From contig JANWKR010000012.1 of the NCBI GenBank assembly GCA_025451275.1, positions 1 to 43,082 of the forward strand: 43,082 nucleotides of DNA, in the 5' to 3' direction. Made by a program: the position numbers and the translations under genes. The notes below the pieces were generated by a model, which had not been told where the DNA came from, did no database searches, and saw nothing but the letters and a program-made list of their open reading frames with translations. Origin of the DNA: Steroidobacteraceae bacterium. Lineage in GTDB: Bacteria; Pseudomonadota; Gammaproteobacteria; Steroidobacterales; Steroidobacteraceae. Positions 38,217 to 40,678 of this stretch are shown here, one piece after another; positions within the stretch are counted from its first letter, which is position 1, and every line of letters starts with the position of its first letter.

Positions 38217-38630
38217 ATGAATCTCAAAGGCAGCAAGACGGAAAAGAACCTCAAGGATGCGTTCGCCGGGGAATCACAGGCGAATCGCCGCTATCTGTAT
38301 TTCGCCGCGAAGGCCGACGTGGAGGGGTTCAACGACGTATCCGCCGTGTTCCGCTCCACCGCCGAGGGCGAGACCGGCCATGCGCACGGACACCTCGAGT
38401 ACCTCGAGGCGGTCGGCGATCCGGCCACCGGCCTGCCGATCGGCGAGACCAAGCTGAATCTCAAGGCGGCCATTGCCGGCGAGACGCACGAGTACACCGA
38501 CATGTACCCGGGGATGGCGAAGTCGGCGCGCGAGGAAGGCTTCGCGGAAATCGCCGACTGGTTCGAGACGCTCGCCAAGGCCGAGCGCTCGCACGCCAAC
38601 CGCTTTCAGAAGGCACTGGACTCGATCTGA
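38217..38630 (+). CDS. Rubrerythrin, ferritin-like domain only
   Basis: 137 residues from the ATG at 38217, set by AGGAG five bases upstream (an in-frame GTG at 38205 lies in the operator). Four-helix diiron protein that reduces peroxide in anaerobes and microaerobes. Diiron ligands appear complete: E19 (AGESQANRRY), E52 and H55 (EGETGHAHGH), E89 and E92 (GETHEY), E123 and H126 (AERSHANRF). The C-terminal rubredoxin FeCys4 domain of classical rubrerythrin is missing, so electrons must come from another protein, plausibly the Fe-S protein encoded next. First gene of a three-gene set. Confidence 0.9.
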   Translation: MNLKGSKTEKNLKDAFAGESQANRRYLYFAAKADVEGFNDVSAVFRSTAEGETGHAHGHLEYLEAVGDPATGLPIGETKLNLKAAIAGETHEYTDMYPGMAKSAREEGFAEIADWFETLAKAERSHANRFQKALDSI

Positions 38631-38644
38631 GCCGCCCGGGACGA

Positions 38645-38672
38645 GGCGGGCGCGCGCCGGCGCACGCCCGCC
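38645..38672 (+). terminator. GC hairpin between the rubrerythrin and Fe-S protein genes
   Basis: GGCGGGCG (38645-38652) pairs with CGCCCGCC (38665-38672), 12-base GC loop, 14 bases after the rubrerythrin stop. No U-tract. It may be an attenuator or processing site giving more rubrerythrin than downstream protein. Confidence 0.4.
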
Positions 38673-38703
38673 ACGCACGCCTCGCGCCCGGCCGGACGCG
38701 CGC

Positions 38704-40080
38704 ATGAGCACTACGCCGCCGCGCCCCGGTGCCGCCGGCAGCGGACGCGAGGGGAGCCTCGAGGCTCCGACGCGCCACCCGCTCGCCTGGGACACCGCGG
38801 AGTTCTACGAGCAGGGCGCGCTCGAGAAAGAACTCGAGCGCGTGTTCGACATCTGCCACGGCTGCCGCCGCTGCTTCAGCCTGTGCAACGCCTTCCCGAC
38901 GCTGTTCGACGCGGTGGACGCCACCCGCGAGGGCGAGGTGCACGCCCTCGAGCGCAAGGTCTTCTGGGAGGTCGTCGACCACTGCTACCTGTGCGACATG
39001 TGCTTCATGACCAAGTGTCCGTACGTGCCGCCGCATCCCTGGAACGTCGACTTCCCGCACCTGATGCTGCGCGCCAAGGCGGCGCGGGTGAAGACACAGG
39101 GGCTGTCGCTGAGCGAGCGCGTGCTGGCCGCCACCGACACGGTCGGCAGCCTCGCCGGCATCCCGGTGGTGGCGGAGATCGTGAACGCCGTCAACGCCTC
39201 GCGCCCCGGACGCGTGCTGCTGGAGAAGACCCTGGGCGTGGACCGCGGCGCGCCGCTGCCGAAGTACCAGGCCCGCAGCGCCCGCCGGCGCCTGGCCGCG
39301 CTCGGCACGGTGACGCCGGCGGCGGCCGGGGCGGCGCGCGCCACGGCCGACACGACCGGCCGCGTGGCGCTCTTCACCACCTGCTACGGCAACCGCAACG
39401 AGCCCGAGCTGGATGAGGATCTGGCGGCGGTGTTCGGGCACAACGGCATCGAGCTGGCGCTGCTCGATGGCGAGCGCTGCTGTGGCATGCCGCGGCTCGA
39501 GCTCGGGGACCTCGAGGGGGTGGCGAAGCTCAAGGAGTTCAACATCCCGCGCCTGATGCAGGCGGTGGAGGCCGGTTACGATCTGGTGGCGCCCATTCCG
39601 TCGTGCGTGCTGATGTTCAAGCAGGAGCTGCCGCTCATGTACCCCGCGGATCAGCAGGTACAGCGGGTCGGCGCGCACATGTTCGATCCGTTCGAGTACC
39701 TGATGCTGCGTCACGCAGCGGGCCTGCTGCGCACCGACTTCAAGGCCGCGCTCGGCAAGGTGAGTTACCACGTGCCCTGTCACCTCAGGGTGCAGAATCT
39801 CGGACTGAAGACGCGCGACCTGCTGACGCTCGTGCCCGGCACCACGGTCGAGCCGATCGAGCGCTGCTCCGGCCACGACGGCACCTACGGGGTGAAGCGG
39901 CGCTTCCGCGCGGCCTCCGTCAAGATCGGCCGCCCGGTGGTGCAGAAGGTGCAGGCCAGCGGCGCCGACCACTACGCGAGCGACTGCCCGATGGCCGGGC
40001 ACCAGATCGCGAGCGGCCTGGAGGGCGCGCGGCCGCCCGAGCACCCGCTGCGGCTGCTGCGCGTAGCCTACGGACTGTGA
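38704..40080 (+). CDS. (Fe-S)-binding oxidoreductase with two 4Fe-4S motifs and CCG domains (GlpC/HdrD-like)
   Basis: 458 residues. Two ferredoxin-type clusters near the N-terminus: C51-x2-C54-x2-C57-x3-C61 and C94-x2-C97-x2-C100-x4-C105-P. Then two cysteine-rich CCG-type domains: the first with C227, C259-C260-G and C301; the second with C359, C388-S-G and C428, where one Cys of the usual CCG is replaced by Ser (CSGHDGTYG). Such domains bind non-cubane or [4Fe-4S] clusters in heterodisulfide reductase, glycolate oxidase and GlpC. No membrane segment or flavin domain. Its position between rubrerythrin and DUF3501 suggests it relays electrons to rubrerythrin (inference). Confidence 0.88.
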   Translation: MSTTPPRPGAAGSGREGSLEAPTRHPLAWDTAEFYEQGALEKELERVFDICHGCRRCFSLCNAFPTLFDAVDATREGEVHALERKVFWEVVDHCYLCDMCFMTKCPYVPPHPWNVDFPHLMLRAKAARVKTQGLSLSERVLAATDTVGSLAGIPVVAEIVNAVNASRPGRVLLEKTLGVDRGAPLPKYQARSARRRLAALGTVTPAAAGAARATADTTGRVALFTTCYGNRNEPELDEDLAAVFGHNGIELALLDGERCCGMPRLELGDLEGVAKLKEFNIPRLMQAVEAGYDLVAPIPSCVLMFKQELPLMYPADQQVQRVGAHMFDPFEYLMLRHAAGLLRTDFKAALGKVSYHVPCHLRVQNLGLKTRDLLTLVPGTTVEPIERCSGHDGTYGVKRRFRAASVKIGRPVVQKVQASGADHYASDCPMAGHQIASGLEGARPPEHPLRLLRVAYGL

Positions 40081-40096
40081 GGCCGGGGGGCGCGCA

Positions 40097-40678
40097 GTGA
40101 ACAAGCTCCAGGCGGACGATCTCATGTCGCTCGAGCAGTACGCGCGCGACCGCACCGCGTTCCGTGCCCGCGTGCTGCGCCACAAGGGCGCGCGGCGGCT
40201 GGCGGTCGGGCCGAACACCACCTGGTGCTTCGAGGACCGCGTGACCGTGCAATACCAGGTGCAGGAGATGCTGCGCGCCGAACGCATCTTCGAGCCGCTC
40301 GGCATCGCCGAGGAGCTGGCCGCCTATAACCCGTTGATCCCCGACGGCAGCAACTGGAAGGTGACGCTGCTGCTCGAGTTCGACCCCGCGGAGCGGCCGC
40401 ACGCGCTGGCGCAGCTCAAGGGCGTCGAGGACCGCTGCTGGGTGCAGGTCGCGGGCAGCGCGCGCGTGTTCGCAATCGCCGACGAGGACCTCGAGCGCGA
40501 GAACGCGGAGAAGACCTCGGCGGTGCACTTCCTGCGCTTCGAGCTCGAGCCGGCGATGGTCACCGCCCTGCGCGGCGGCGCCGCGCTCGCCGCCGGCATC
40601 GACCACGAGCACTACCGCCACGAGGCGCGCCCGGTGCCGGCGCCGGTGCGCGCGGCGCTGACGCTCGATCTCGCGTGA
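40097..40678 (+). CDS. DUF3501 family protein
   Basis: 193 residues from a GTG preceded by GGGGGG (40085-40090) at six bases. Soluble, no signal peptide. Recognisable family stretches: [52 protein letters not shown] and VHFLRFEL. Domain of unknown function, repeatedly found beside rubrerythrin and CCG-domain Fe-S proteins (general knowledge). Few cysteines (C near positions 36 and 115), so it is unlikely to carry a cluster itself; a docking, assembly or regulatory role is possible but unproven. Confidence 0.82.

Follow-up and report, generated by a model that had tools for sequence, protein, structure and literature searches.

A rubrerythrin, RFO, and DUF3501 operon in Steroidobacteraceae with a putative Irr-type operator at its promoter

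When does a cell want a rubrerythrin that lacks a rubredoxin domain, and what switches its gene on? This question is raised by three adjacent genes in a 43,082-nucleotide (nt) stretch of DNA from a Steroidobacteraceae bacterium (GenBank assembly GCA_025451275.1, contig JANWKR010000012.1; the whole stretch is hereafter the window), which encode a rubrerythrin (gene rbr, product Rbr), a CCG-type Fe-S protein (RFO), and a DUF3501 protein. An earlier note, made from the DNA letters, had read three plus-strand genes here, and the open reading frame (ORF) calls placed them at the same coordinates (Table 1). With no rubredoxin domain in Rbr and with DUF3501 and RFO adjacent, the trio is the published aerobic-type rubrerythrin system and is, in itself, already known: Cardenas et al. 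(2016; PMC5114695) described RBR, DUF3501, and RFO as co-localised and co-occurring, with all three in 185 genomes.

The explanation that we favour is an aerobic-type rubrerythrin operon whose promoter would be repressed by an Irr-type protein of the Fur family and in which RFO would pass electrons to Rbr. We assign this reading, which was drawn from sequence comparison, a probability of roughly 0.6. Established within it are the trio and its conservation; the operator, which in the genus sits where a repressor would; the joint occurrence of the box and an Irr-type protein; and, in another class, the gene order irr-rbr-RFO-DUF3501.

Conservation of the trio and its predicted operator

DUF3501 was present in 52 of 60 relatives, and all three genes were found in 43 of the 51 related loci fetched; seven of the other eight lacked rbr, with a contig end nearby, and L084 lacked RFO. 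Among gamma- and betaproteobacterial (gamma/beta) loci with a readable rbr upstream, RFO was present in 67 of 70, these 70 being what remained of 74 after removal of L136, L143, L173, and L190, in which rbr is cut by the contig start. These counts support the three genes as a conserved unit. The earlier note had held that rare co-occurrence in related genomes would speak against such a unit; because the trio was kept in most loci of both sets, co-occurrence proved common and the unit was not refuted. On a wider scale, DUF3501 was found in 11 of 200 genomes drawn from the phylum (the window's own counted) and, in another class that we infer to be Alphaproteobacteria, in 138 of the 289 genomes sampled.

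Ahead of rbr lies an operator that the earlier note had not recorded. The perfect palindrome TTAGACCAAGTCTAA begins 12 nt past the −10-like element TAGAGT and ends 12 nt ahead of the rbr start codon, and it is an exact instance of the predicted Irr-type box, for which we used the pattern TTAGA-N5-TCTAA and counted loci with at most one mismatch as carrying the box. The wider pattern approximates the 7-1-7 palindrome TTAGAMT-N-AKTCTAA, and 7-1-7 palindromes are in the style of Fur-family boxes. We liken the box to the iron control element (ICE) by the half site TTCTAA (PMC7540006). When two mismatches were allowed, the window held a single match to the palindrome TTAGACNNNGTCTAA (0.05 expected), and the whole assembly held one exact and three two-mismatch matches versus 11 for the reversed control pattern.

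The promoter was read by eye; a general promoter scan listed no plus-strand promoter at its position, and the window's own −35 element falls outside the pattern of our script. A TTGAC-like/TAnAgT-like pair was nevertheless detected in 27 of 28 same-genus loci, and in 27 of 28 the box begins 10–15 nt beyond the −10-like element. Its placement 12 nt after this element in the window therefore suits a repressor.

The box recurred ahead of rbr in relatives. Of the 44 related loci, 38 carried it exactly and 41 with at most one mismatch, and no exact site occurred in 700,571 other bases; in the gamma/beta loci, the corresponding figures were 47 and 55 of 70, with two exact sites in 957,398 other bases, a control that includes the four dropped loci. 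Of 37 same-genus genomes (the window's own included), 31 had one exact site, four had two or three, and two had none. Of the 35 with a site, 32 showed one ahead of rbr; G005 has its site away from rbr, and G018 and G022 are not part of this reading.

Co-occurrence of the box with an Irr-type protein

Irr is an iron- and haem-sensing repressor of the Fur family and has been regarded as all but restricted to another bacterial class. Relatives of the window's host encoded a canonical Fur, most of them together with a second Fur-family protein and some with a third. In NCBIfam, the second was matched best by IrrA and Irr at 129–144 bits versus a cut-off of 150 (five of five scanned), and the third by Zur at 111–119 bits versus a cut-off of 167 (three of three scanned). 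Both histidines of the HXH motif, described as haem-binding in Irr (PMC7762939), were invariant in all six Irr-type proteins compared. Because no gamma/beta protein passes the curated cut-off, we use the name Irr-type rather than Irr. Proteins of at least 98 bits were called Irr-type, canonical Fur scoring at most 75 bits; the second Irr-like protein of G046 (L234) reached 92 bits.

On this definition, an Irr-type protein was encoded in 47 of the 70 gamma/beta genomes (completeness unstated). Box and protein occurred together in 44, the protein alone in 3, and the box alone in 11, while 12 had neither (Fisher p = 3.2e-5); when only exact boxes were counted, the figures were 37, 10, 10, and 13 (p = 0.006). 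The association held in the 40 genomes that were at least 90% complete (31, 3, 1, and 5, in the same order; p = 4.7e-4) and when this set was counted by genus (15, 3, 1, and 5; p = 0.007).

Two of the three protein-only genomes among the 70 (loci L175 and L195) have no RFO between rbr and DUF3501. As a separate observation, four loci (L084, L162, L175, and L195) carry rbr and DUF3501 with no RFO within the fetched stretch; L175 and L195 also lack the box, yet an Irr-type protein is encoded in their genomes, and L084 has a one-mismatch box.

Linkage in the other class pointed to the same regulator. We fetched 60 of its 138 DUF3501 genomes, 58 of which hold rbr. An irr-like gene lay directly upstream of rbr on the same strand, 123–550 nt away, in 50 of these 58 loci, so in this class the trio usually makes up the last three genes of a four-gene unit, irr-rbr-RFO-DUF3501. 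When ten more loci were added to the 58, a box within one mismatch was found in 38 of the 54 loci with an adjoining irr and in 9 of the 14 without, with one exact and seven one-mismatch sites in 442,954 control bases. A search with the Irr model gave a match near or over the cut-off in seven of eight genomes of this class and none in G139. An Irr match at 1e-22 or better was obtained in 40 of the 200 phylum genomes, one of these being listed in the window's class, and in none of 14 control genomes.

Several points weigh against the favoured reading. All of the box/protein tests above ignore relatedness. Not one of the 70 gamma/beta genomes encoded an Irr-type protein over the NF045678 cut-off (150 bits), and irr was not found in the window's own assembly (G000), which is 81% complete; an Irr-type protein was present in all 14 of the same-genus genomes searched that were at least 91% complete. 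The box occurs without the protein in G052 (100% complete), and 11 of 23 Irr-less gamma/beta genomes (completeness unstated) keep it. Conversely, 3 of 34 near-complete Irr-bearing genomes (G050, G137, and G161) have no box within one mismatch; irr stands beside rbr in G137 and G161, and G050 has a two-mismatch box only. Five other-class loci without an adjoining irr carry the box exactly or nearly, and adjacency is thus not needed. In Pelagibacter, the transcript of a rubrerythrin (of the aerobic type or not) rose 1.57-fold on iron limitation (PMC2864753). Finally, the electron transfer and the role of DUF3501 rest on inference.

Some of these observations would be explained if the operator were real but its reader were not the Irr-type protein, which would merely co-occur, and instead were canonical Fur, a Zur-like protein, or some unidentified factor. 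We consider this rather unlikely. The Fur-family protein of the window's own assembly is a canonical Fur only (203 bits versus a cut-off of 146), and the boxes without an Irr-type protein, in G052 and in 11 of the 70 genomes, would fit. However, canonical Fur (51–74-bit matches taken as Fur) was also encoded in five near-complete trio genomes with neither box nor Irr-type protein (G041, G047, G139, G148, and G231), and irr often stands beside rbr in the other class (50 of 58 loci). The Fur-family typing and the near-complete genome survey further weaken Fur or Zur as the reader of the box.

Returning to repression by an Irr-type protein, we tentatively suggest, at somewhat less than even odds, that irr, rbr, RFO, and DUF3501 form one ancient four-gene module. 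The trio would then be the first and, in many lineages, nearly the only target of Irr, the broad rhizobial iron regulon would be a later expansion, and the gammaproteobacterial regulator would have moved away from the operon yet still read the box. If so, haem-gated peroxide defence would extend well beyond Alphaproteobacteria. The trio is widespread, occurring in nearly half of the sampled genomes of one class, and has also been reported from mitochondria: in a protist, mitochondrial targeting was predicted for all three proteins (PMC7050145). The literature searched, which did not cover Rodionov et al. 2006, reportedly a regulon study of Alphaproteobacteria, contained no report of Irr control over the trio or of an irr gene ahead of it; we do not claim priority for the link.

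Proposed function of the operon and its surroundings

In the mechanism that we propose, the haem-free Irr-type protein would bind the box just past the −10 element and block transcription at haem or iron shortage. At ample iron, it would release the DNA, and the diiron peroxidase Rbr and its Fe-S partner would be made. An operon that is off at low haem or iron and on at ample iron would spend iron when it is available and guard the cell when iron makes peroxide most harmful. Parts of this scheme have precedents: rhizobial apo-Irr binds to its element under haem shortage (PMC7762939); at the Sinorhizobium meliloti mbfA promoter, the ICE half site TTCTAA is the Irr operator, and its mutation relieves repression (PMC7540006); and in Rhodobacter, the RNA start of mbfA lies inside the Irr box and an irr mutant withstands H2O2 better (PMC3413700). 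The box and its candidate regulator offer a cheap test of when cells want the trio, which would be at plenty of iron or haem rather than at peroxide as such.

The 137-residue Rbr is covered by the Pfam Rubrerythrin domain at residues 10–133 (E-value 9.4e-30) and contains no rubredoxin domain. It has E19, E52, H55, E89, E92, E123, and H126, which we take to be the diiron ligands; the description of Rbr in the earlier note as rubredoxin-less with all diiron ligands agrees with the domain scan and these residue positions. The closest solved relatives, Burkholderia pseudomallei Rbr and sulerythrin, are both rubredoxin-less. The classical rubrerythrin model NF045767 gave 138.1 bits versus a cut-off of 200, and the match stopped at position 144 of 194.

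RFO contains two four-cysteine motifs (C51/54/57/61 and C94/97/100/105) and CCG-type cysteines at two sites (C227, C259, C260, and C301; C359, C388, and C428). These cluster-type cysteines were invariant in all 55 aligned homologues. Position 389 was Ser in 49, Ala in 6, and Cys in none, so the Ser is a family trait; in 70 further loci, a motif search gave 62 matches, with Ser in 57, Ala in 4, and Arg in 1 at the equivalent position. Judged from these alignments, the second CCG site is a fixed three-cysteine feature of the family. The earlier note had seen two 4Fe-4S motifs and two CCG-type domains, the second with a Ser replacement: the cysteine patterns are there, Ser included, whereas Pfam recognises a single CCG domain (PF02754, 2.6e-15; residues 221–306). 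The best NCBIfam match was GlpC (NF008369) at 225.8 bits, under the cut-off of 278, and no solved relative was detected by sequence at 1e-3. The structure model (pLDDT 88.7) was closest to LutA, EtfD, and HdrB, proteins that move electrons between flavoproteins, quinones, or thiols.

RFO most likely hands electrons to Rbr in the stead of rubredoxin, fed by a general carrier not encoded in the operon; since its model is closest to LutA, EtfD, and HdrB, a quinol- or electron transfer flavoprotein (ETF)-like carrier is our best guess. That RFO replaces rubredoxin, as the earlier note had supposed, is an existing hypothesis, because RFO had already been suggested to compensate for the rubredoxin domain lost from RBR (PMC5114695). 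The further idea of sulfur species as a substrate found no evidence in our analysis. The neighbours do not supply the missing primary donor: no recurrent flavin or NADH donor gene stood out near the trio when neighbours from up to 110 loci were clustered and one representative of each of the 45 largest clusters was inspected by eye over its first 90 residues, a procedure that could miss a rare donor.

Control by an iron sensor would be equally apt if the trio were mainly an iron-handling (ferroxidase- or storage-like) or metal-loading set, which we regard as unlikely. Rhizobial genes for iron storage and export are repressed by Irr (PMC7762939), and B. pseudomallei Rbr is promiscuous for Mn, Co, and Fe, its activity still to be explored (PMC12585693). 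However, RFO is a redox protein by Pfam, alignment, and structure model, and rubrerythrins of known activity are peroxidases, as cited in PMC5114695.

The step in our favoured mechanism that concerns DUF3501 is its weakest: as a guess, the protein most likely serves RFO and Rbr as a small adaptor. The Pfam match is strong (PF12007, 9.1e-64), and the model (pLDDT 93.4) clearly matched the fold of one solved structure only, 3FJV, an entry without assigned function; the family is nearly unstudied. A match to the copper protein CrdA (Z 7.4) was rejected as within the range that the tool calls common. It is improbable, in our view, that DUF3501 rather than RFO feeds Rbr electrons or assembles its metal site, with RFO a later add-on. 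This would accommodate the 25 organisms of the published survey with RBR and DUF3501 but no RFO (PMC5114695), as well as the four loci above whose fetched stretch has none; against this, no Cys was invariant or nearly so in 73 DUF3501 sequences, and the fold indicates no cofactor. A role of the palindrome as a leader RNA hairpin instead of a DNA operator is very improbable: folding of the leader was somewhat better than that of shuffled sequence (z −2.14), but positions 6 and 10 are unpaired in many loci (TTAGAACCAGTCTAA), the box lies up to 242 nt ahead of the start codon elsewhere, and no Rfam match reached the gathering score.

Table 1. Features of the trio locus, in window coordinates.
Feature	Positions	Strand	Details	Basis
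Likely promoter	38149-38177	+	TTGCAG (38149-38154), 17 nt, TAGAGT (38172-38177)	read by eye
Operator, predicted Irr-type box	38190-38204		perfect palindrome TTAGACCAAGTCTAA	pattern scans, comparison across loci
rbr, aerobic-type rubrerythrin without rubredoxin	38217-38630	+	ATG start, 137 aa	ORF, Pfam, solved relatives
RFO, CCG-type Fe-S protein	38704-40080	+	ATG start	Pfam, NCBIfam, alignment, structure model
DUF3501 protein	40097-40678	+	GTG start, 193 aa	Pfam PF12007, structure model
GC-rich inverted repeat 3′ of DUF3501	40681-40702	+	no recognisable terminator	terminator scan, fold test

Gaps of 73 nt and 16 nt separate rbr from RFO and RFO from DUF3501. The common hairpin end that had been proposed for the trio did not hold up: an inverted repeat is present, but the terminator scan found no T-tract terminator after DUF3501, and the repeat folds no better than shuffled sequence (z −0.44). 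In the window, a gene that we take to be parE-like follows the trio (40767-42659), and genes that we presume to be Dxs-, IspA-, and XseB-like precede it on the other strand (34887-38065), these names being assigned from the translations. Across loci, a parE-like cluster lay downstream in 61, and XseB- and Dxs-like clusters lay upstream on the other strand; many neighbour clusters look like antisense noise of GC-rich DNA. In 20 loci, a CNP1-like gene follows DUF3501 on the same strand at a median of 35 nt (e.g., L149:8614-9186), possibly as a fourth operon gene in part of the loci.

Several exact boxes in order-level genomes lie away from rbr, and a few of their flanking genes were viewed. G058 (L238:4272) has the exact box TTAGACTAAGTCTAA between two divergent genes, 61 nt from one for a TonB-dependent receptor and 116 nt from one of the metallo-beta-lactamase fold, which is possibly a second Irr-type target, linked to iron uptake. 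In G038 (L236:3983), a 291-codon frame without a Pfam match begins 89 nt after the exact box TTAGACCCAGTCTAA, and another exact box precedes rbr (L237). G027 holds two rbr genes on two contigs (L059 and L241); the RFO-like stretch of L059 is 53% identical to the window's RFO and contains a stop, and the extra rbr represents a second copy or contamination (3%).

Comparison with known systems

The locus shares with the aerobic-type rubrerythrin system (PMC5114695 and PMC7050145) the same three families, their neighbourhood, and the rubredoxin-less Rbr, whereas the excerpts of those papers mention neither an Irr-type operator nor the irr linkage. The Irr/ICE regulons of Alphaproteobacteria (mbfA, bfr, and ccpA; PMC3413700, PMC7762939, and PMC7540006) resemble it in the box halves TTAGA and TCTAA, in targets that are iron-binding, ferritin-like, or peroxidase proteins, and, for Rhodobacter mbfA with its RNA start inside the box, in the repressor-like box position. 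Here, in contrast, the predicted target is the soluble aerobic-type trio rather than the membrane protein MbfA, the host is a gammaproteobacterium, and the regulator falls under the curated Irr cut-off. GlpC, subunit C of the anaerobic glycerol-3-phosphate dehydrogenase, is the best NCBIfam match of RFO, which differs from it by the sub-cut-off score and by Ser or Ala for the second Cys of site 2, where GlpC presumably has CCG; no GlpA- or GlpB-like gene was noticed beside RFO. Sulerythrin and B. pseudomallei rubrerythrin (1j30, 4di0, and 9onm) resemble the Rbr of the window in being rubredoxin-less, in length, and in having the same diiron residues.

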